Position numbers and translations under genes: made by a program. Under the pieces are notes generated by a model. It was not told where the DNA came from. It saw nothing but the letters and a program-made list of their open reading frames with translations, and did not search any database. Shown here piece after piece: positions 33,196 through 44,787 of a stretch of 64,000 nt of DNA (within the stretch, counting starts at the first letter, position 1; each line of letters opens with the position of its first letter). This DNA is from an uncultured Alphaproteobacteria bacterium. Its GTDB lineage: Bacteria; Pseudomonadota; Alphaproteobacteria; RF32; CAG-239. The stretch lies in contig CALXTU010000001.1 in assembly GCA_944391495.1 (NCBI GenBank), positions 467,496-531,495 on the forward strand, read 5' to 3'.

Positions 33196-33760
33196 GTCAT
33201 GTTGAGCGGAGCGAAACATCTCAGAGGAGATTCTTCGGGACTCTTGTCCCTCAGAATGACGGTGCCCTTTATGGTCATGTTGAGGAGCAAGACGACGAAA
33301 CATCTCATAGATTCTTCGGAACTTACGTCCCTCAGAATGACAGAAAAAAAGAATGCTCAGAATGACGTTTAACGTTACTTTTGTGCGGACAAAAGTAACC
33401 AAAAGCCGCCGGGACAAGCGCTCCTCTTAACGCCCCGTCTGCGCCGGCATATCAGGCGCCGTAACTTGGCATCTTTGACAAGATGCCGCAAACAAAACGA
33501 CGATAAGGCTGACAGACCTGATTCCGGCTTGCCGGGGCTGATACGCGCAAAATCCCGGACCCGATATTTGTTCACCCTCACCTGTCATGCCGCCAAGGCA
33601 GGCATTCCTGCCTTGGCTAAGGCATCTGAAAGCGGAAGACCCCTTAGCCTTGCCTCACGGCAAGGCGGGGTGACAAGGTGGGGTGTGCCTTACGGCCGGG
33701 AGGAGTGATGGTTTGTGCGTGGGAAGAATGCTTCCCGAGGCGGGGGACGGGTTTAAATTG
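33196..33760. repeat. Composite of dispersed repeats A, B and C-like
   Basis: The 880-base gap between tuf and the next gene holds no gene. Two family A copies lie at 33196-33260 and 33274-33341, each with GTCATGTTGAG, GAAACATCTC, GATTCTTCGG and CTCAGAATGAC blocks. A 70-base family B copy lies at 33368-33437, starting TTTAACGTTACTTTTGTGCG with a GTTACTTTTGT / ACAAAAGTAAC hairpin. Further GC-rich inverted segments follow, then a family C-like fragment near 33715-33750. Bases 33761-33942 are A+T-rich with nothing recognised. Confidence 0.8.
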
Positions 33761-33942
33761 GAGCGATGACAGATTTAAATGGGGGACAATAAAAATGACG
33801 GTATTGGTTTGACGGCATATTTATTATTTTTTTAACCAATATTTGGCATTAATGTATTTAAGGGTGGCAGATAATTGTTGATTTGCACCGCCGATATTTC
33901 TAAAAAGGCTTTTGTTCCATTAAAAATTAGTTGACGGACTTT

Positions 33943-35184
33943 ATGGCAAATATTGTTGAGATAAAACCGCTGGATATTGAAAAACTGGATAAAAAACGTC
34001 GGCTTGTCGGCCGGACGACAGTGTATTCACGGATGAAACTTTATAAATATAAAGCAAGGATTTATCGTTGTCCGCCGCTTGCCGATAATGATGCAGAATT
34101 GTATAAAGTTGTTATCCGCCGGCGTCATGTCATCGGTTATTGTATGGTCTTTGTCGATGAAGACAACTATCTGGATATTCCGTTGCTGGCAACGCTTGAT
34201 CGTCATTATCGTTTGGGAAAAATCTTGTCACAGATAGCCATTGACCGGATGTTTGATTTGAATTGCAAAGGAATTAAGCTGATTGCCAGTTGGAACAGTC
34301 TTTTGCATCATTATCGGACGGGGTTTATTCCTTGTCCGCAGAAAAAAATTGACGGCAGATTGTGTGATGAAATTTTGGCGAAAGGCGATTTAAAGCAGTG
34401 TCAGAAACTTGGGTGTATCGTTATGTATCTGCCGCAAGATATTGTCAGAAGCCGGCAGGAAGAATCCAAGCTTTTGGATGACAACCGGCTGGATACCGTA
34501 AAAGGGGGTGTCGGCAGAGTTAAAGTCTGGAATAAACGGCGTCATTGTCAGGACTTGTTTAATATTGTCAAAATTGTTCATGCTTCCGGAATCGAAGACA
34601 TTGTTTTGATGTTTAAACGGCGCCGGATAGCCCTTATTACCCTTAATTATTTTTATCGTGAGACGAATCAAAACGGAAAGACGGTTTATCGGAATTGCTT
34701 GGAAGAATATCCGTCCTGGTCGGTTTTTTCGTGTTACGGAGATGACACCAGCCGGCCGAATAAAACTTTTGCCGAGTATTGGGATATTCGGGAAACAGAT
34801 GTTTATGATGCTGATGAAATTTTAAAAATCCTGTTTAAATGCGCTTTGGAAGCCGGCGCTTATCATGGTTGTCCGCTGTTGCAGATAGAAGCCGACTGGG
34901 GCGAACATGCGGCTGTTTATCGTTACGGGTTTAGAACGCAAAACTGCATGACGGAACGTTCATCAACGGAAATAGCGGCGCTGATTGAAAAAGAGGCAGC
35001 CAAGCTGAAACGAAAAAAAGGGTCTTTGAATTTTAACAAACTCGGCAGTGTGGAAATGATTATGGATAAAGAACGTGCCGTTGAACTCGGATATGAAAAA
35101 ATACGCGTATTAAATGTTTTTGGCCGGTGGCAGCGGTTTTGTGGCCGGATACGTCAAAGGTTCGGCGCCTTTTTTCATAAATGA
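33943..35184 (+). CDS. Hypothetical protein with two GNAT-like regions
   Basis: 413 residues from the ATG at 33943 (a TTG four codons upstream is possible; neither has a strong ribosome site). Residues around 50-125 (KVVIRRRHVIGYCMVF, then LDRHYRLGKILSQIAIDRMF) follow the strand-helix layout of a GNAT acetyltransferase. A second, weaker copy of that layout lies near 290-340. The protein is basic, cysteine-containing and ends in an Arg-rich tail. No motif settles the function. It stands alone in front of the MerR-type promoter. Confidence 0.7.
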   Translation: MANIVEIKPLDIEKLDKKRRLVGRTTVYSRMKLYKYKARIYRCPPLADNDAELYKVVIRRRHVIGYCMVFVDEDNYLDIPLLATLDRHYRLGKILSQIAIDRMFDLNCKGIKLIASWNSLLHHYRTGFIPCPQKKIDGRLCDEILAKGDLKQCQKLGCIVMYLPQDIVRSRQEESKLLDDNRLDTVKGGVGRVKVWNKRRHCQDLFNIVKIVHASGIEDIVLMFKRRRIALITLNYFYRETNQNGKTVYRNCLEEYPSWSVFSCYGDDTSRPNKTFAEYWDIRETDVYDADEILKILFKCALEAGAYHGCPLLQIEADWGEHAAVYRYGFRTQNCMTERSSTEIAALIEKEAAKLKRKKGSLNFNKLGSVEMIMDKERAVELGYEKIRVLNVFGRWQRFCGRIRQRFGAFFHK

Positions 35185-35194
35185 AAAAAAATAC

Positions 35195-35225
35195 TTGACT
35201 TAGAGTTAGCTCTAAATAATACAAT
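35195..35225 (+). promoter_or_regulatory. MerR-type promoter with operator in 19-bp spacer
   Basis: TTGACT (35195-35200) and TACAAT (35220-35225) are separated by 19 bases, two more than normal. The spacer is filled by the inverted repeat TTAGAG-TTAG-CTCTAA (35200-35215). Overlong spacers containing a dyad are the hallmark of promoters untwisted by MerR-family activators. It lies 32 bases before the DUF362 start codon. No merR-like gene is in the window. Confidence 0.7.
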
Positions 35226-35256
35226 GAAGCGTCTTATATAAAAAGGGGGCGCAATT

Positions 35257-36213
35257 ATGAAACGCAGGGATTTTTGTAAATTGTCCGCCAGCGCGGTTTT
35301 AGCCGGTATTTTGGGCGGACGTCTGGGGTTAAAAACCGCCACTGCGGCCGTTCCTGCCGCCGGTGAAAAAGCCAAGGTTTATTTCAGCCGGGAGATTACT
35401 CCGGAAAGTCTTCGTAAAATTTACTCAATGGTTAATCAGGACATTAAAGGCAAGGTGGCGATTAAACTGCATACCGGTGAGCCGCACGGGCCGAATCTGC
35501 TGCCGAGAGAATTGGCAAAAGCTTTGCAGGCGGATATTCCGGACAGCACGATTGTCGAATGTAATGTTTTGTATCCCAGTCCAAGGCAGACAACCGAAGG
35601 GCATCTGGAAACCCTGAAGACAAACGGCTGGACATTTTGTCCGGTGGATATTATGGATGCCGAAGGCGATGTCAATCTGCCGATTAACGGCGGCAAGCGC
35701 TTAAAAGAAGTGGCGGTCGGCAAACATATTGAAAATTATGATTCGATGGTGGTTTATACCCATTTTAAAGGCCATGCGATGGGCGGTTTCGGCGGGTCGC
35801 TCAAGAATATTGCCATCGGCTGTGCCTCAGGTAAGGTCGGCAAGGCTCAACTGCACGGTGCCGGCTGGCCGATTGGTGAAGCGTTTTTGGAAAGAATGGT
35901 TGAGGGCGGTAAAGCCGTTGTTGATCACTTCGGCAAACAGATTACCTTTATCAATGTATTGAAAAATATTTCGGTCGACTGTGACTGTGATGCACACGGT
36001 GCCAAGCCGACCTGCCCGGATATCGGCATTTTGGCGTCGACGGATATTCTGGCCGTTGATCAGGCTTCCATTGATATGGTTTATGCCCTGCCGGAAAAAG
36101 ACAAACATGATATTGTCGAAAGAATTGAGTCCCGTAAAGGACTGCATCAGCTTGAGTATATGGACGAACTTAAAATGGGGCATCGTCAGTATGAACTGAT
36201 TGAAGTGGCTTAG
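35257..36213 (+). CDS. Tat-exported DUF362 protein with LarA-like site
   Basis: 318 residues with a Tat-type signal (MKRRDF, hydrophobic stretch to about residue 31). The body is DUF362: HFKGHAMGGFGGSLKNIAIG near 169-188 and PDIGILASTD near 254-263, plus Cys242, Cys244 and Cys253, which could ligate an iron-sulfur cluster. His173, Lys183 and His200 fall in the pattern H-x9-K-x16-H, close to the H-x9-K-x15-H by which LarA holds its nickel-pincer nucleotide (His174, Lys184, His200 in L. plantarum). The LarA residue His108 has no clear equivalent; the region reads PSPRQTT. larB, larC and larE follow in the same operon. An NPN-binding role is inference. GGGGGC precedes the ATG. Confidence 0.85.
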   Translation: MKRRDFCKLSASAVLAGILGGRLGLKTATAAVPAAGEKAKVYFSREITPESLRKIYSMVNQDIKGKVAIKLHTGEPHGPNLLPRELAKALQADIPDSTIVECNVLYPSPRQTTEGHLETLKTNGWTFCPVDIMDAEGDVNLPINGGKRLKEVAVGKHIENYDSMVVYTHFKGHAMGGFGGSLKNIAIGCASGKVGKAQLHGAGWPIGEAFLERMVEGGKAVVDHFGKQITFINVLKNISVDCDCDAHGAKPTCPDIGILASTDILAVDQASIDMVYALPEKDKHDIVERIESRKGLHQLEYMDELKMGHRQYELIEVA

Positions 36214-36238
36214 TTATCGGAAAGAAGGAAACATATTT

Positions 36239-37480
36239 ATGAACAGACGTGAATTTTTGATGAGTACGCTGGCGGCTTTTGCTTTGTCGGCGCTGCCGAA
36301 ACTGACTTTCGGTGAAGCAATTCCGGTGTCGGATGCGGTTAAGGCCAAAATCAACCCGCAAAACAAACTCGGGTTCGGATTTATGCGGTTGCCGCTTACG
36401 GATCCGAAAGATCAGACGGCGATTGATTATGACGAGTTGAACAAAATGGTCGATTTGTTCCTGCAGCGCGGGTTTACGTATTTTGACACTGCCTGGATGT
36501 ATATGGGACACGAAAGTGAAATTGCTTTAAGAAAGTCACTGGTGGAGCGGTATCCGCGGGATAAGTTTACCGTGGCGAGCAAACTGCCGGTCGGTATGAT
36601 CAAAAGTAAAGAAGAACAGGAAGAAGTATTTAACAAACAGCTGGAAAAGACCGGGCTTAAGTATTTTGATTATTATCTGGTGCATAATGTTAATGCCCAT
36701 ACGATAGACAATGTCCGCAATTTTGACAGTTTTAAGTTTGTTAATGACAAAAAGAAAGAGGGCAAGGTTAAACAGGTCGGTTTTTCTTTCCATGACAGTG
36801 CCGATATGTTTGAAGAGGTTATGAAAGAATATGCTGACCAGATTGATTTCGTGCAGCTGCAGATTAATTATATTGACTGGGACAATCCGGGAATCGAAGG
36901 CCGGCGCTGCTATGAAATCGCGCAAAAGTACAACAAACCGGTGGTTGTGATGGAGCCGGTCAAAGGCGGAAGTCTGGCCGCGGTGCCGCCGGCAGTTGAA
37001 AAAATATTTAAGGACGCCGCGCCGGATATGTCGGTGGCCTCATGGGCGGTGCGCTACGCGGCAAGTCTGCCGGGCGTGATGATGGTTTTGAGCGGTATGA
37101 GCAATCTGGAGCAGGTTGAGGACAATACCTCTTATATGCAGAACTTTAAGCCGCTTGACGCCAGAGAAACGCAGGTGGTTGAAAATGCGGTCAAGACGTT
37201 GCACAGCGAACTGCAGATTCCCTGCACGGCTTGTCGTTACTGTGTTGATTCCTGTCCGATGAAAATTGCCATTCCGGAATATTTTGCCATATATAATAAA
37301 GGCAGACAGGGATTCGGCAGCAATCCGTTCAGAGGACAACAGGCGGCTTATGACAAAATGGCGGCAAACCACGGCAAGGCTTCGGCCTGTATCGGCTGCC
37401 GGTTGTGTGAAAAGAACTGTCCGCAGCATATTGAAATCAGCCAGTGGATGAAAAAAATTGCCAAAATATTTGAAGCATAA
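36239..37480 (+). CDS. Tat-exported aldo/keto reductase with two 4Fe-4S motifs
   Basis: The ATG at 36239 is chosen for its AAGAAGGA site and Tat-like signal (MNRREF, hydrophobic to about 25); the product is 413 residues. The AKR barrel has the catalytic tetrad Asp83, Tyr88, Lys115 and His149. The C-terminus carries two ferredoxin motifs, Cys329/332/335/339 and Cys384/387/390/394. This class reduces substrates with electrons from Fe-S clusters and not only NADPH. Located 25 bases after the DUF362 gene and 11 before the flavodoxin, it likely works with them outside the inner membrane. Confidence 0.93.
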   Translation: MNRREFLMSTLAAFALSALPKLTFGEAIPVSDAVKAKINPQNKLGFGFMRLPLTDPKDQTAIDYDELNKMVDLFLQRGFTYFDTAWMYMGHESEIALRKSLVERYPRDKFTVASKLPVGMIKSKEEQEEVFNKQLEKTGLKYFDYYLVHNVNAHTIDNVRNFDSFKFVNDKKKEGKVKQVGFSFHDSADMFEEVMKEYADQIDFVQLQINYIDWDNPGIEGRRCYEIAQKYNKPVVVMEPVKGGSLAAVPPAVEKIFKDAAPDMSVASWAVRYAASLPGVMMVLSGMSNLEQVEDNTSYMQNFKPLDARETQVVENAVKTLHSELQIPCTACRYCVDSCPMKIAIPEYFAIYNKGRQGFGSNPFRGQQAAYDKMAANHGKASACIGCRLCEKNCPQHIEISQWMKKIAKIFEA

Positions 37481-37491
37481 AGGAGAAAGAC

Positions 37492-38073
37492 ATGAATAAA
37501 TGGTGGTTATCGGGAATTGCCGTGGTTGCTTTGCTGGTAGCGGCGGCCTATAAGGTTATGGCTCAGACGGGAGAGGAAAACAAAACCATGGATACGCAAA
37601 ATGCTAAAATTTTAATCGCTTATTATTCGTACAGCGGCAATACCAAAGAAGTGGCCGAGGCTATTCAAAAAGAGATCGGCGGCGATTTGTTTGAAATCAA
37701 GGCTGAGGGAACTTATCCCGATGAATACCGGCCGATGACCGAACAGGCCAAAAAGGAAATTGGCGCCGGTTTCCGGCCGAAACTGACAACATCGGTTGCC
37801 GATATGGCGCAGTATGACATAGTGTTTATCGGCTCACCGAACTGGTGGGGAACAATTACGCCGCAAGTCAGCAGCTTTTTGGAAAGCTATGATTTGTCCG
37901 GTAAAACGGTTATTCCGTTTGTTACCCATGGCGGCGGCGGACAGCAGAATACCATAGCCGATTTGACTGCCCAGTGCAAAGGCTGTAAGGTGAATAGTGA
38001 CGGTTGGGTCGGATACGGCAGCCGCACATTGGGGATCGGCAGTTGGCTTGAAGATTTGGGGTTTAAGAAATAA
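37492..38073 (+). CDS. Membrane-anchored or exported flavodoxin
   Basis: 193 residues: an N-terminal hydrophobic segment (about 5-22) acting as signal or anchor, then a flavodoxin domain with the FMN phosphate loop YYSYSGNTKEVA and flavin-contacting GSPNWWGT. Flavodoxins carry electrons and are normally cytoplasmic, so export is notable and matches its two exported neighbours. AAGGAGAAAG precedes the ATG. The stop overlaps the larB start by one base. Confidence 0.9.
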   Translation: MNKWWLSGIAVVALLVAAAYKVMAQTGEENKTMDTQNAKILIAYYSYSGNTKEVAEAIQKEIGGDLFEIKAEGTYPDEYRPMTEQAKKEIGAGFRPKLTTSVADMAQYDIVFIGSPNWWGTITPQVSSFLESYDLSGKTVIPFVTHGGGGQQNTIADLTAQCKGCKVNSDGWVGYGSRTLGIGSWLEDLGFKK

Positions 38074-38753
38074 TGGCCGATTGTTTTGCGGATATCGGCT
38101 TTGCCAAACTTGATATCAGCCGCCGAGAGCGGACGGGAATGCCGGAAACGATTTACTGCGCCGGAAAGACCAAAGAACAGCTCCTTGGGATATTAAAAAC
38201 TTTCCGGGACAGGAAATGTTCGGTTCTCGGCACCCGCTGCTCGCCGGAACAGGCGGCTTTTGTCAAAGATGCCGGTGTGACGGCCGAATATGATGAGGTT
38301 TCGCGGGTGATTACACTCGCCGTCGGCGAAAGGTATAAACTCAACGGCCGGATTGCCGTTTGTACCGGCGGTACGGCCGACTTACCGGTTGCCGAGGAAG
38401 CGGCGCAGGTTGCCGAGTTTTTCGGCGCCGGGGTTGACCGGCATTTTGATGTCGGTATTACCGGGCTTCATCGCCTGTTGGCGAAGATTGAAGAAATCCG
38501 CAAAGCCGATATTGTCATTACCGTTGCCGGAATGGAAGGCGCGCTGGCCAGCGTGATTGCCGGTCTGGTGGCGGCGCCGGTTATTGCCGTGCCGACATCG
38601 GTGGGATACGGCGCGTCGTTTCACGGATTGTCGGCACTGCTGACAATGCTTAATTCCTGTGCGGAAGGCATTTCCGTCGTTAATATTGACAACGGTTTCG
38701 GTGCGGCGGTTACGGCATGTAAAATGTTGAGGATGCTGAATAATCATGACTAA
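38073..38753 (+). CDS. larB: Nickel-pincer cofactor biosynthesis protein LarB
   Basis: LarB carboxylates and hydrolyses nicotinic acid adenine dinucleotide, the first step to the nickel-pincer nucleotide. The 226-residue protein has the AIR-carboxylase-like C-terminal domain (AVCTGGTADLPVAEEAA; TVAGMEGALASVIAGLV; VPTSVGYG). It overlaps flavodoxin by one base and larC by eight, showing that cofactor synthesis is locked into the redox operon. Confidence 0.95.
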   Translation: MADCFADIGFAKLDISRRERTGMPETIYCAGKTKEQLLGILKTFRDRKCSVLGTRCSPEQAAFVKDAGVTAEYDEVSRVITLAVGERYKLNGRIAVCTGGTADLPVAEEAAQVAEFFGAGVDRHFDVGITGLHRLLAKIEEIRKADIVITVAGMEGALASVIAGLVAAPVIAVPTSVGYGASFHGLSALLTMLNSCAEGISVVNIDNGFGAAVTACKMLRMLNNHD

Positions 38754-39954
38754 ATATCTTTATCTGGAAGGTGCCGGCGGAATCAGCGGCGATATGACGG
38801 TTGCGGCACTGCTTGATCTGGGCGCTGATCGGGGCCGGCTTGATGCCGTGTTGGAAAGCCTGAAACTTGAAGGTTTTGATTACCATATTGAACGCAAGTC
38901 GTCTTACAGCATCAGCGGTTGTGATTTTGATGTGCATCTGCATCACGAAGCGCATCATCATGAAGAGGCTTATCATGAGCATCATCACCATGAGCACCGG
39001 CATCTGGCAGATGTTTACGCCATTATTGACCGCGGCGTTATGACCGACAGAGCCAAAGCTCTGGCAAAGAAAATATTTTTGATTGTGGCCGAGGCCGAAG
39101 GGAAAGCGCATGGTTGTCCGGTTGAGGAAGTGCATTTTCATGAGGTCGGGGCGCTTGATTCAATCGTTGATATTATTGCGGCCGCGGTTTTGTTTGATGA
39201 TTTGCAGATTGATGAGGTTATTGTCAACGGTCTGAGCGAAGGGCGGGGCTTTGTTGAATGTCAGCACGGCAGGCTGCCGGTTCCGGTGCCGGCGGTATTG
39301 AATATTGCCGAAAAATACGGCGTTATGCTGCGACCGACGAATAATGACGGCGAGATGGTGACACCGACGGGAATAGCCATTGCTGCCGCAATCAGGACAA
39401 CGGAAAAAATCCCTGCCGCCTATAAAATACTTAAGACGGGAATCGGTCTGGGCAAAAGGGATTTCGGACATGCCAACTTTTTGCGCGCCATGATTATTGA
39501 AGACGGGGCGGCCGATGGGCAGATGTATGTTGTGGAAACCAATATAGACGATTCAACGCCGGAAGAGCTCGGGCTGGCCATGGATAAGCTGTTTGCCGCC
39601 GGTGCCGCCGACGTGCATTTTGAGCCGTGTTTTATGAAGAAAAACCGGCCGGCATATATGCTGCGGGCCATTGTTGCGGCAGACAAGCTTGCGGCAGCGG
39701 AAGATGTTATTTTCCGCAATACGTCGACCATCGGGCTGCGTAAATATCCGGTGGAAAGAACCTGTATGGTGCGGGAAATTTTATCGGTTGAACTGCCGTA
39801 CGGCAAGGTTTCGGTTAAGAAATGCCGGTTGGGTGATATTGTCCGATACAATCCGGAGTATGAGAGTGTTAAAGCTTTAAGCGAAGCCTGCGGAAAGACT
39901 TTTCGCGAGGTGTTTGACGAAGCGCGCCGGACTGCCGGGAACAGCGGGTTATGA
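38746..39954 (+). CDS. larC: Nickel insertase LarC (single ORF)
   Basis: LarC inserts nickel into the pincer nucleotide using CTP. This copy is one uninterrupted 402-residue frame, unlike L. plantarum where LarC1 and LarC2 are joined by a frameshift. Residues 64-86 are His-rich, likely a nickel store. Typical motifs are EGAGGISGDM at the start, FHEVGALDSIVDI near 130 and NIDDSTPEELG near 265. It overlaps larE by four bases (ATGA). Confidence 0.96.
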   Translation: MTKYLYLEGAGGISGDMTVAALLDLGADRGRLDAVLESLKLEGFDYHIERKSSYSISGCDFDVHLHHEAHHHEEAYHEHHHHEHRHLADVYAIIDRGVMTDRAKALAKKIFLIVAEAEGKAHGCPVEEVHFHEVGALDSIVDIIAAAVLFDDLQIDEVIVNGLSEGRGFVECQHGRLPVPVPAVLNIAEKYGVMLRPTNNDGEMVTPTGIAIAAAIRTTEKIPAAYKILKTGIGLGKRDFGHANFLRAMIIEDGAADGQMYVVETNIDDSTPEELGLAMDKLFAAGAADVHFEPCFMKKNRPAYMLRAIVAADKLAAAEDVIFRNTSTIGLRKYPVERTCMVREILSVELPYGKVSVKKCRLGDIVRYNPEYESVKALSEACGKTFREVFDEARRTAGNSGL

Positions 39955-40763
39955 TTGACCGGCTGGAGGCATATCTGTGCGAGCTGGCACCTGCGGGCAT
40001 AGCTCTGGCTTATTCGGGCGGGGTTGACAGTTCACTGTTGCTGGCCGTTTTGGGGCGTCTGCGGCAAAAGCGGCCGTTTGCGGTGATGGCTTTGACGATG
40101 CGGACGGTTTTGCAAGATGAGCGCGAGATGGCGGAGGCCGATGATTTTGCCAAAAGAGCGGGGATAGAGCAAAAGTTTTTGACGTTTGATCCGTTTCAGC
40201 TTGAAGAAGTTCGCCATAACCGGGAAGACCGCTGCTATCATTGCAAAAAGGCGATTTTTTCGCGGTTTAAAGAATATGCCGAGGCAAAAGGGTTGAAATA
40301 TCTGCTGGACGGAACCAATGCCGATGATTTGAATGTTTATCGTCCGGGAAGAAAGGCTCTGCAAGAACTCGGCGTTGTTTCGCCTTTGGCGGAACTCGGC
40401 ATCGGCAAAGCGGAAATACGCAAGATATCGGCGGCTCTGGGGCTGCCGACGGCGGGAAAACCGGCGGTGCCCTGTCTGGCTACCCGGTTTGAATATAATA
40501 CGCTGCTGGATGATGAGATAATATCAAAGGTCGCGCAAGGTGAAAAAATAGTTCGTGAGATGCTGCCGGAGGTTAAAGATATTCGTTTGCGGGTTCACGG
40601 TAATCTGGCACGGCTGGAGGTTTCGCCGGAGAGTATACCGGCTGTTGCCGCGCAGGCAAAGGAGCTCGGCAGGGTTTTGAAGCAAATCGGCTTTGATTAT
40701 GTTACGCTTGATTTGGAAGGGTATCGCTCCGGTTGTTTTGACGGGCATTTGCAACAAAATTAG
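39951..40763 (+). CDS. larE: Sacrificial sulfur transferase LarE
   Basis: LarE activates the pyridinium carboxylates with ATP and donates sulfur, in many species from its own cysteine. The 270-residue protein has the PP-loop YSGGVDSS (21-28), the CYHCKK motif near 95-100 and Cys175 in PAVPCLATRF, matching the sacrificial cysteine of L. plantarum LarE (Cys176). With larB and larC, all three cofactor genes are complete, yet no larA lies in the window. Confidence 0.96.
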   Translation: MIDRLEAYLCELAPAGIALAYSGGVDSSLLLAVLGRLRQKRPFAVMALTMRTVLQDEREMAEADDFAKRAGIEQKFLTFDPFQLEEVRHNREDRCYHCKKAIFSRFKEYAEAKGLKYLLDGTNADDLNVYRPGRKALQELGVVSPLAELGIGKAEIRKISAALGLPTAGKPAVPCLATRFEYNTLLDDEIISKVAQGEKIVREMLPEVKDIRLRVHGNLARLEVSPESIPAVAAQAKELGRVLKQIGFDYVTLDLEGYRSGCFDGHLQQN

Positions 40764-40811
40764 AAAAATTATTATACCAATAATCATGTTTAACAAATAA
40801 AAAAAGGTAAA

Positions 40812-41558
40812 ATGATGAAAAAAACAATTTTGATTTTTTTACTGATGATGGTAATGGCCGCGCCGGTTTGGGCTCACGGTAATCACGGACAGGTTGAGCT
40901 GACATCGGGTGCAACGTTGTCGGCCATTTGGCTGGCTGCTCTGCTGACTGCAGTGTTGCACACGATTATGGGGCCGGATCACTACCTGCCGTTTATTGCC
41001 ATCGGTAAAAGTCGCGGTTACAGTCTGAAGAAGACGTTGTTCTGGACATTTGTCTGCGGAATCGGCCATATTGCGAGTGCGCTGCTGATTGCGGCAGTGT
41101 TTATTTATTTTTCGCAATGGCTGAGTTCGGAAAAGTTTGCCTGGATTGAGGAAAACCGCGGAAATGTCGCTGCGTATGCCCTCATCGGTCTCGGCGCCGC
41201 ATATTTATTGTGGGCGCTGCGCCGCCGTCTGAGGCATAAACACGGTGCGGAACATCATTTACCGCAGCCCGGGAAGGAAAAAAATATTTCCGTCTGGGTG
41301 TTGTTTATTATTTTTGTCTTGGGTCCGTGCGAAGCTTTGCTGCCGATTTTGACGGCATCCAGCGTTTTGGGTGTTTCGGCGGTTATTTCCAGCACCGTTA
41401 TTTTTTCCATTGCCACCATTGCGACGATGATGCTGGCGGTGGCACTGGGAATCCTCGGAATTAACGCATTGCGGTTTCACCGGCTGGAAGCTTATGCGCA
41501 TGAAATTGCCGGCGGGACGATTATGGCCTGCGGCGTGGCAATTATCTGCGGACTGTAA
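40812..41558 (+). CDS. Nickel/cobalt permease-like membrane protein
   Basis: 248 residues with a signal-like N-terminus (cleavage near VWAHG), a His-rich start of the mature chain (HGNHG) and about six membrane helices. Helix 2 carries HTIMGPDHYLPF, the H-x4-DH pattern used for Ni/Co binding in NicO/UreH-type permeases. A His-containing loop follows near 138-147. Its place 48 bases after larE argues for nickel supply to LarC. Direction of transport is inferred. Confidence 0.75.
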   Translation: MMKKTILIFLLMMVMAAPVWAHGNHGQVELTSGATLSAIWLAALLTAVLHTIMGPDHYLPFIAIGKSRGYSLKKTLFWTFVCGIGHIASALLIAAVFIYFSQWLSSEKFAWIEENRGNVAAYALIGLGAAYLLWALRRRLRHKHGAEHHLPQPGKEKNISVWVLFIIFVLGPCEALLPILTASSVLGVSAVISSTVIFSIATIATMMLAVALGILGINALRFHRLEAYAHEIAGGTIMACGVAIICGL

Positions 41559-41560
41559 AA

Positions 41561-41593
41561 ATTAAGCCCTCTTTTGCAAGGGGAGGGCTTAAT
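41561..41593 (+). terminator. Hairpin terminator after nickel permease gene
   Basis: ATTAAGCCCTC / GAGGGCTTAAT perfect stem; the trailing T-run is weak (CGGTTTTG), so read-through into the polyferredoxin gene is possible. Confidence 0.55.
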
Positions 41594-41623
41594 CGGTTTT
41601 GTAAAATATAAAGGATAAGATTA

Positions 41624-42898
41624 ATGGGGCGAAAGAGTTTTTATTTGCGGGTTGGTGTTGCCGCTGTTGCCGGAATTTTGATGATTTTGGCTTTTGCCGG
41701 AATTGTCTATCCGGTTCAGATTTTTGATTGGCAGCTGATGGCCGTTTTGCAGAGGGTTTTAATTGATTTTTCGGTTGCGGCTGCGGTGGTGCTGGCGGCG
41801 ATTGTCGTGTTGACGTTTTTGTTCGGCCGGATTTATTGTTCGACGATTTGTCCTTTGGGATTGCTGCAGGAACTTTTGACGGTGGTGTTTCGCCGTAAGC
41901 TGAAAATGCAGAAAAACAGGCCTTATAAATATTTTATTGCCGCTGCGGCGTTCGGGCTGCTGTTTGGCGGTACGGTGTTGGTAACAAGGCTGGTTGATCC
42001 TTACAGCGTGTTCGGCAATGCGGCCGGCGATGCCTGGTATGGTTTAGCGGCAGTGGTGCTGCTTGCCGTTTTGGTGTGGTTCAAAGGGCGGTGGTTTTGC
42101 AGCAATATCTGTCCGGCAGGTGCGATTTTGGGACTGCTGGCGAAGTTTTCGCTATTTAAGGTTTATATGGATAAAAACAGTTGTGTCGCCTGCGGTTTGT
42201 GTGCCGGAAAATGTCCGACCGGAAGTATTGACGTAAAGAATAAAACGGTTGACAACGAAACCTGCATTAAATGTCTGCGCTGTCTTCCGGTCTGTCGGAA
42301 AAGCGGTATACATTACGGTTTAAAACCGGCCGAAAAAACAGCTTTCAGTCCGGCAAGGCGGAAACTTTTGATCGGCGGTGCGGCGTTAATCGTTTTGGCA
42401 GCGGCAGTGAAAAGCGGTGCGGCATTTGTCAAAACCGCGGCGCTCAAAGTGAAGAATGTTATTCTGCCGGCAGGCGCCGGTACGGCTGCAAGATTTGTCA
42501 ACAGTTGTCTGAACTGTAATTTGTGCGTACAGAACTGTCCGATGAAAATTATCAAAAAGGCTGATGCGGATTTTCCGGTTGTTCATATTGACTATTCCGC
42601 GGGTTTTTGCGAATATGGTTGTCATAAGTGTTCGGAAGTTTGTCCGTCCGGCGCCATCAAACGTCTGAGTCTGGCGGAAAAACAGAAAACACAAATCGGT
42701 CTGGCGGCGATTGATGCGGATAAATGTATCAAATGCGGTCTGTGCGTGATGAAATGTCCCAGGGAGGCTTTGACGCGGGAGGACGGAAGCGTGTCGGTTG
42801 TTAATGCGGATATATGTATCGGCTGCGGTGTCTGCAAAACGGCATGCCCGGTTAAGGCCATAACAATTACGGCGGTTGAAACGCAGAAAATTTTGTAA
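41624..42898 (+). CDS. Membrane polyferredoxin (NapH/CcoG-like)
   Basis: 424 residues. The N-terminal half has about five membrane helices and two CxxxCP loops ([18 protein letters not shown]), as in NapH/MauN quinol dehydrogenases. The rest carries six ferredoxin-like cysteine motifs: [60 protein letters not shown] and [13 protein letters not shown] further helix lies near 250-265. Such proteins carry electrons between the membrane and soluble partners. It is a good candidate to feed the exported flavodoxin and reductase. TatA follows 13 bases later. Confidence 0.88.
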
Positions 42899-42911
42899 AA
42901 GGAGAAAAAAT

Positions 42912-43127
42912 ATGTCGTTAGGTTTGACGGAAATAGCCCTGATTTTGATTGTGGTGCTGATTTTGTTCGGCGGTAAGCGGATTCCGGAACTGGCCAAGGC
43001 TCTGGGAAAAGCCCAGTATGAATATAAAAAGGCCAAGGAAATGCTGCAGAATGAAGCGCAGGATTTGAAAAATACCGTTGAAAAAGCCGCCGAGGAAGAA
43101 GAAAAGAAATCCGAGAACCAGAAATAA
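42912..43127 (+). CDS. tatA: Sec-independent translocase TatA
   Basis: 71 residues from the ATG at 42912, supported by AAAAGGAG. One N-terminal membrane helix, the [16 protein letters not shown] hinge and amphipathic helix, and a charged tail: the TatA layout. Its stop overlaps the tatC start. No tatB is seen, so this may be a minimal TatAC system. Confidence 0.93.
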
Positions 43128-43855
43128 TGGCGGAAGATAAAGACGAAAGCCTGATTCAGCATTTGGAAGCCTTGCGCTCAATGCTGATACATTGTTTTGT
43201 TGCCCTGGCCGTCGGTCTGGTGCCGATGTTTTTGCTGGCGCCTTATTGTATGGACGGCTTAATCGCCATTATGATCGGCAATAACGAGGTTTCGTTGAAC
43301 TATTTTTCGCCGATGGAAGTGTTTATCCTGCAGATTAAAATTGCGGTGGTGCTGGATTTGGTGATTTGTTTTCCGTATATTGCCAGACAGTTGTGGAAAT
43401 TTGTTCTGCCGGCGCTTTATGACAACGAACGGCGTTTTGTGAGGTCGATTGTTTTGTCGTCGACGCTGCTGTTTGTACTCGGTGCGGCGTTTTGTATATT
43501 TTTTATTTTGCCGCTGATTATTAATTTCGGTGTCAGTTTCGCTACCGGAAACATTCAGGCGACGCTGGGCGTTTCCAACATTATTTCTCTGGCATTGTGG
43601 CTGGCGGTGGTGTTCGGGCTGATGTTTCAGTTTCCGCTGATTACCTATTCGCTGATCCGGTCGGGAATTGCATCATATGAGGTGGTTAAGGCTAAGAGAC
43701 CGTATATTTTAATCGGAATATTGATTATCGCAGCATTGCTGACACCGCCGGACGTGGTCAGTCAGATTATGCTGGCAACGCCGACATATCTGCTGTTTGA
43801 AGCCGGGCTTTATTGTGCCAAAAAGAGGGATAAAAGATTATCTGATGAAGATTGA
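43127..43855 (+). CDS. tatC: Twin-arginine translocase subunit TatC
   Basis: 242 residues, six membrane helices, the N-terminal HLEALRSMLIH signal-binding segment and the FSPMEVF loop typical of TatC. It recognises twin-arginine signals and exports folded, cofactor-loaded proteins, which would suit the two RR-signal redox proteins encoded 6-8 kb upstream. The start shares a base with the tatA stop. Confidence 0.95.
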   Translation: MAEDKDESLIQHLEALRSMLIHCFVALAVGLVPMFLLAPYCMDGLIAIMIGNNEVSLNYFSPMEVFILQIKIAVVLDLVICFPYIARQLWKFVLPALYDNERRFVRSIVLSSTLLFVLGAAFCIFFILPLIINFGVSFATGNIQATLGVSNIISLALWLAVVFGLMFQFPLITYSLIRSGIASYEVVKAKRPYILIGILIIAALLTPPDVVSQIMLATPTYLLFEAGLYCAKKRDKRLSDED

Positions 43856-44342: not shown

Positions 44343-44714
44343 AGAGAGAGATTGACGTTCGCAAGCTCCGTTGCCTCTGCGGCGCCGGCCTAAAGGCCGC
44401 CGGCATACTTCCGTCTGCCTGCGCCTGGTAGTGAACCCCCTTTTCCCGGGGCTTCAAATCGTCCTTCCTCATCATTTACAACAAAACCCTCCGCAGGGGA
44501 GGGCTTGTTGTAAATGGCGGAGAGAGAGGGATTGACGTTCGCAAAGCTCCGTTGCCTCTGCGGCGCCGGCCTAAAGGCCGCCGGCATACTTCCGTCTGCC
44601 TGCGCCTGGTAGTGAACCCCCTTTTCCCGGGGCTTCAAATCGTCCTTCCTCATCATTTACAACAAAACCCTCCGCAGGGGAGGGCTTGTTGTAAATGGCG
44701 GAGAGAGAGGGATT
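44343..44714. repeat. Tandem 181-bp repeat seeded from tRNA-Ser 3' end
   Basis: Two nearly identical units begin at 44351 and 44531. Each unit's right end carries the last bases of tRNA-Ser including CCA (TGGCGGAGAGAGAGG); a shorter remnant precedes unit 1. Each unit also has a TTTACAACAA ... TTGTTGTAAA hairpin around GGAGGG/CCCTCC, which could terminate tRNA-Ser. Long frames seen here are artefacts. The 404 bases between the GNAT gene and the tRNA hold nothing else. Confidence 0.8.
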
Positions 44715-44787
44715 TGAACCCCCGGTACCCGGTAAAGAGTACAATTGATTTCGAGTCAACCGCATTCGACCACTCTGCCATCTCTCC
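44696..44787 (-). tRNA. tRNA-Ser (anticodon CGA)
   Basis: Minus-strand 92-base gene: acceptor GGAGAGA / TCTCTCC, D-loop GTGGTCGAATGC, anticodon loop ACTCGAAAT with anticodon CGA, a long variable arm, T-arm GGGTTCAAATCCC and encoded CCA. Long arm and anticodon agree on serine. Confidence 0.95.

Follow-up and report, generated by a model that had tools for sequence, protein, structure and literature searches.

A DUF362 protein encoded with nickel-pincer nucleotide synthesis and Tat genes as a candidate exported nickel-pincer enzyme of an uncultured alphaproteobacterium

Enzymes of the LarA superfamily, the lactate, malate and other 2-hydroxyacid racemases and epimerases, depend on the nickel-pincer nucleotide (NPN), which is made by LarB, LarC and LarE. 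In LarA catalysis NPN accepts a hydride and then gives it back (PMC12611868, sections consulted). About 15% of the genomes analysed in a 2024 mBio paper have larBCE without larA; the same paper, in the parts consulted, has the larBCE genes of Synechocystis making NPN for a yet-to-be-identified protein and describes a co-expression system for NPN loading in E. coli and puts the mass added to LarA by NPN near +450 Da (PMC11796402). A 64,000-nucleotide stretch of DNA from an uncultured alphaproteobacterium (assembly GCA_944391495.1, contig CALXTU010000001.1, positions 467,496 to 531,495; this whole stretch is the window) holds larB, larC and larE in a cluster of ten genes that begins with one for an exported-type protein of the DUF362 family and ends with tatA and tatC. 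Our reading, to which we give a probability of roughly 0.5, is that this DUF362 protein folds like LarA, carries NPN (likely attached to Lys183, the nickel being bound by His200) and is exported already loaded by the twin-arginine translocation (Tat) system. The organism's genome (1,464,020 bases, rated 100% complete with contamination 0.25) contains two genes of the DUF362 family (PF04015) and no match to PF09861, the LarA profile; the lack of larA that an earlier reading of the letters alone (the sequence-only reading) had remarked on in the cluster extends to the whole genome.

DUF362 and DUF2088, the LarA family, share Pfam clan CL0471 (PMC11770544), and the sequence-only reading was mistaken in treating the two as unrelated; the consulted parts of that paper assign DUF362 no function and use it as a tree outgroup. 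The family relation is already known; what we propose as new is that DUF362 types A and C, defined below, are NPN users, and partly exported ones. The protein from the window is a member of PF04015 (E 1.5e-40, 139.9 bits against a cut-off of 24), and its nearest relatives are in records labelled uncultured Alphaproteobacteria, proteobacterium and Rickettsiales. The Pfam profile search gave it no match to PF09861 (Lar_N), and among LarA models of NCBIfam only LarAH5 responded, below threshold (E 0.0088, residues 151-194). A PDB sequence search brought up neither LarA nor another convincing relative; fold and profile-profile comparison did find LarA, and the modelled protein is predicted to share its fold. 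In sequence alignment H173, K183 and H200 stand opposite LarA His174, Lys184 and His200 (L. plantarum numbering). K183 falls on the lysine to which LarA attaches NPN (hhalign); H200, which is invariant, falls on the nickel histidine, at a spacing of 17 after K183 as against 16 in LarA; and H173, invariant in the alignment made, falls on the catalytic His174 (so numbered in PMC12611868, sections consulted). C242-D243-C244 (CDC) is also invariant in the alignments made. Beyond the predicted fold and the His174-Lys184-His200 pattern, the protein probably has in common with the LarA superfamily the use of the products of LarB, LarC and LarE, to judge by gene neighbourhood and co-occurrence. It is shorter (318 residues against about 430), and it adds the CDC motif, a twin-arginine (RR) signal and redox neighbours.

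Three types of DUF362 protein are relevant. Type A has HFKGH...GG..KN together with CDC, and takes in the exported form as well as forms with an inserted ferredoxin domain. Type B has LKTH...TGAVKN and C-terminal ferredoxin motifs; in the second phylum considered below, where the 30 best PF04015 loci were examined, 24 gave a readable motif region of this type, in genomes with and without LarC. Type C, from the sample of the window's phylum, has KHHSLSGCTLSMKN, with an RR motif in all six proteins aligned; nine of its loci, not all, were examined. H-x9-K is kept in all three types (by eye for B). In hhalign type C aligns weakly with LarA (probability 4%, the motif not registered without gaps) and with type A (probability 2%, H-x9-K registered).

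Exported-type DUF362 was followed from 50 of its 80 loci into 49 genomes, 46 of which have LarC and 23 a strong LarA (PF09861 at E<=1e-30; the family cut-off is passed in 25); 23 of the 26 without strong LarA have LarC, the other three being assemblies of 0.9-1.4 Mb. Among 249 genomes of the window's phylum, its own included, PF04015 is found in 43, LarC in 48 and both in 39. The four with PF04015 and no LarC are 69-76% complete, and four of the nine with LarC and no PF04015 have PF09861 (one at 27.8 bits). With the exported protein as query (E<=1e-20) its own genome was the sole match in this sample, so that the other PF04015 proteins there are diverged. The second phylum, that of Sporomusa silvacetica (G026, locus L034), was represented by 199 genomes, with PF04015 in 159, LarC in 118, type A in 96 (at E<=1e-8) and strong LarA in 108 (138 have PF09861 at E<=0.001). 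When the 91 genomes without strong LarA are divided by type A, LarC is present in 27 of the 29 that have it and 12 of the 62 that do not; restricting the comparison to genomes that lack any PF09861 match gives 14/15 and 11/46. DUF362 other than type A shows no significant link with LarC (8/27 vs 4/35), and all these comparisons are between related genomes that are not independent tests, so that p values overstate independence. Among 14 controls, LarC and PF04015 come together without PF09861 in Synechococcus elongatus and Haloferax volcanii, and with it in T. maritima and M. acetivorans. It was also seen that 29 of the 199 second-phylum genomes have strong LarA and no LarC match, for which missing data, NPN salvage or another nickel insertase are possible explanations.

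The physical linkage of DUF362 with lar genes, which the sequence-only reading had made a touchstone, recurs in several phyla. Flanks of up to 10 kb hold a lar gene at 13 of the 80 exported-type loci, with record titles that name Alphaproteobacteria, Desulfovibrionaceae, Deferribacterales (LarE about 9 kb away), Telmatospirillum, Akkermansia and Oryzomonas, and at three loci (L051, L072, L078) a DUF362 gene with an RR N-terminus directly adjoins lar genes. In the second phylum type A lies within about 2 kb of LarC in at least three genomes (G026, G300, G475; by eye). Among close relatives, three loci (L098, L099, L110) have an aldo/keto reductase (AKR) gene together with larB, larC and larE and no DUF362 seen alongside, and a fourth (L100) has larBCE without the AKR. 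Type C presents another cassette: an AKR with an RR motif, a DUF6599 protein, DUF362 and a polyferredoxin occur together in 9/9 fetched loci, and the six chosen for having LarC on the contig hold larB, larC and larE in or beside the cassette. That the same parts recur around so different a DUF362 speaks for their being a single functional unit. The DUF6599 protein stands between AKR and DUF362 in all nine (L172-L180), with a hydrophobic N-terminus by eye; in L172 it matches PF20244.

The ten genes of the window, from its open reading frames and Pfam/NCBIfam profile searches, are these:

35257..36213, plus strand: DUF362 protein, 318 amino acids (PF04015; RR motif MKRRDFCK)
36239..37480, plus strand: AKR (PF00248) with a C-terminal two-[4Fe-4S] motif (RR motif MNRREFL)
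37492..38073, plus strand: flavodoxin (Flavodoxin_4, PF12682) with a hydrophobic, export-like N-terminal segment
38073..38753, plus strand: LarB, NPN synthesis (NF033503, 284.2 bits, cut-off 175)
38746..39954, plus strand: LarC (C1+C2), nickel insertase of NPN synthesis (PF01969, 441.3 bits; TIGR00299, NF052512)
39951..40763, plus strand: LarE, sulfur transferase of NPN synthesis (TIGR00268, 259.7 bits, cut-off 150)
40812..41558, plus strand: membrane protein without family assignment (motifs HT..GPDHYLPF and CG..H, His-rich loop)
41624..42898, plus strand: NapH-like membrane polyferredoxin (Fer4/Fer4_5; NapH match below the model cut-off)
42912..43127, plus strand: TatA (profile match)
43127..43855, plus strand: TatC (profile match)

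The sequence-only reading had the strand right and counted nine genes where there are ten. Most of its names (DUF362, flavodoxin, LarB, LarC, LarE, polyferredoxin, TatA, TatC) are matched by profiles, and its Tat-like RR starts on two proteins and export-like start on the flavodoxin are seen again by eye. Its overlaps of 1-8 bases in the lar part hold for flavodoxin/LarB (1 base), LarB/LarC (8) and LarC/LarE (4); TatA/TatC also overlap, by 1 base, and the remaining junctions are gaps of 11-65 bases. A 15-pair terminator-like hairpin at 41561-41593 lies between the membrane-protein gene and the polyferredoxin gene, and so the polyferredoxin, TatA and TatC genes may stand partly apart from the rest. 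Terminator-like sites, at 16, are close to a shuffled mean of 14.4, and promoter-like sites lie above theirs (19 against 11.6, standard deviation 3.7); between 33000 and 45500 no regulatory RNA was found at Rfam gathering scores, a tRNA being the sole match.

What had been called an Fe-S reductase is an AKR (PF00248, E 2.6e-43), with the pair of ferredoxin motifs at its C-terminus and an RR start at 36239; by eye it has the Asp, Tyr, Lys and His of the AKR tetrad. Glucose-fructose oxidoreductase is Tat-exported carrying its bound nicotinamide cofactor, and the AKR might travel in the same way. A flavodoxin often, though not always, accompanies exported-type DUF362. The polyferredoxin resembles NapH-type membrane ferredoxins in having Fer4_5 and multiple 4Fe-4S domains, and NapH is its best, sub-cut-off NCBIfam match, but NapH pairs with nitrate reductase, whereas the polyferredoxin gene here is partnered with the DUF362/AKR pair. 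The nickel permease of the sequence-only reading found no backing for the remaining membrane protein: profile searches of Pfam and NCBIfam gave nothing at E<=0.01 (DUF6488 alone, at E 0.39), none of the 120 homologues listed carries a functional name, a PDB sequence search gave no assignment, and its model (predicted local distance difference test score 74) has no PDB fold match at E<=0.001. Its two motifs are invariant and resemble NiCoT signatures; that the protein might transport a metal is a guess.

Around the cluster, a 417-residue open reading frame without Pfam match lies directly upstream of the DUF362 gene on the same strand (33931-35184). An exact direct repeat of 171 nt occupies 44363-44533 and 44544-44714, its second copy overlapping the 3' end of a tRNA-Ser(cga) gene (minus strand, 44696-44787). 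At 33228-33341, downstream of an EF-Tu-like frame named by eye, a 33-nt repeat occurs in two copies that are 88% alike and lie 81 bases apart.

In the sequence of events that we envisage, LarB, LarC and LarE would make NPN in the cytoplasm. There the DUF362 protein would receive it, and the loaded, folded protein would leave through the cluster's own TatAC. On the far side of the membrane the enzyme would use the NPN ring, as LarA does, to accept hydride from an organic hydroxyl or carbonyl substrate or to donate it, His173 serving as acid/base. Electrons might pass between the membrane polyferredoxin, the Fe-S domain of the AKR or the flavodoxin, and the NPN protein; the sequence-only reading had likewise supposed a supply through polyferredoxin and flavodoxin. 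A net redox step rather than racemisation seems likeliest, on two grounds: LarA His108 aligns with a residue other than histidine, and DUF362 has an Fe-S AKR and a membrane polyferredoxin as neighbours in cassettes of two separate kinds. More tentatively, types A and C may constitute a second widespread nickel-pincer class, the missing NPN users of organisms with larBCE and no larA, represented here by an exported respiratory hydride-transfer enzyme wired to the membrane through AKR and polyferredoxin.

A number of findings weigh against this reading. TM-scores (template modelling, Foldseek) of the DUF362 model to LarA are 0.39-0.49 and the hhalign probability is low; a fold distinct from that of LarA is what PMC11796402, in its consulted parts, expects of the missing NPN user. 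The His108 position has just been mentioned; the single-histidine enzymes LarA_Sp and LarA_Bw likewise have the LarA fold and one of the two catalytic histidines, but they lose the His174 equivalent and keep His108, the reverse of DUF362 at the aligned positions (PMC12611868, sections consulted). Also not kept at the aligned positions are the aspartate that holds the ribose and the phosphate-binding arginine (Asp70 and Arg73 in I. pallida LarA, same source); invariant K70, E75 and R110 of DUF362 might substitute for them. Type B keeps H-x9-K, in some genomes without LarC, so that the motif alone is no proof of NPN binding and was rejected as a marker of NPN enzymes by itself. No LarC was matched in 45 of the 159 second-phylum DUF362 genomes, which weakens the notion that any DUF362 predicts LarC, nor in 14 of the 96 with type A (12 of the 14 have strong LarA), and 12 genomes there have LarC with neither strong LarA nor type A. 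LarC also occurs with neither PF04015 nor PF09861 in two 100% complete genomes of the window's phylum (G088, G216) and in the controls C. glutamicum and M. jannaschii, and Bacteroides ihuae has PF04015 without LarC. At 67 of the 80 exported-type loci the flanks examined, some on short contigs, hold no lar gene. Tat export is suggested by RR motifs, which are found within the first 45 residues of 48 of 80 homologues, with starts chosen by script. Finally, the organism's second DUF362 protein (contig 2, C2:286166-287035, outside the lar cluster; type A) has no N-terminal signal by eye, its open frame leaving no room for one, and could be a cytoplasmic NPN user. The contention of the sequence-only reading that NPN made here loads an exported enzyme thus stands in part: NPN genes without larA, the LarA-like predicted fold, the aligned lysine and histidines and the recurring linkage favour it, and RR-only export and the signal-less paralogue do not. 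Downstream of the paralogue gene (L001:1360-2241), the first gene is for a flavodoxin whose N-terminus looks like a signal.

An unlikely alternative is that DUF362, whether exported or not, carries NPN as a racemase or epimerase of the LarA kind, without net redox, and that AKR, flavodoxin and polyferredoxin serve other reactions. The predicted fold and motifs suit it, as does the fact that NPN enzymes of known activity are racemases or epimerases (PMC12611868 and PMC11770544, parts consulted), but the His108 position and the recurrence of AKR and polyferredoxin beside a diverged DUF362 type do not. Slightly less probable again is that DUF362 is an Fe-S or other metal protein that uses CDC and no NPN, its company with lar genes reflecting that both are common in anaerobes: CDC is invariant and type B, with its ferredoxin motifs, retains H-x9-K where LarC is lacking, but within one phylum type A co-occurs significantly with LarC and other DUF362 does not, larBCE linkage extends over several phyla, and the predicted fold is that of LarA. 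That NPN serves the contig 2 paralogue, the exported protein being its cofactor-less relative, we consider improbable, for although the paralogue is 46-48% identical, keeps HFKGHAMGGFGGVLKN and has no room for a signal, it is encoded elsewhere, whereas the copy in the lar cluster is the exported one with its invariant residues kept, and RR-bearing copies directly adjoin lar genes at the three loci named above.

Searches of the open-licence literature (subscription papers and preprints lying outside their scope) found no publication that assigns NPN to DUF362 and none that joins the nickel-pincer nucleotide with the periplasm; pairing nickel-pincer with redox, oxidoreductase or twin-arginine gave no nickel-pincer paper among the matches listed. 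We know of no earlier exported or net-redox use of NPN. If loaded as we suppose, an NPN enzyme working beyond the cytoplasm in the company of electron carriers would mean that NPN chemistry is not confined to racemisation but includes net redox. For the missing NPN user, for example in Synechococcus elongatus and Haloferax volcanii, DUF362 offers a concrete candidate, and its relatives would explain NPN synthesis in many microbes that have no LarA.
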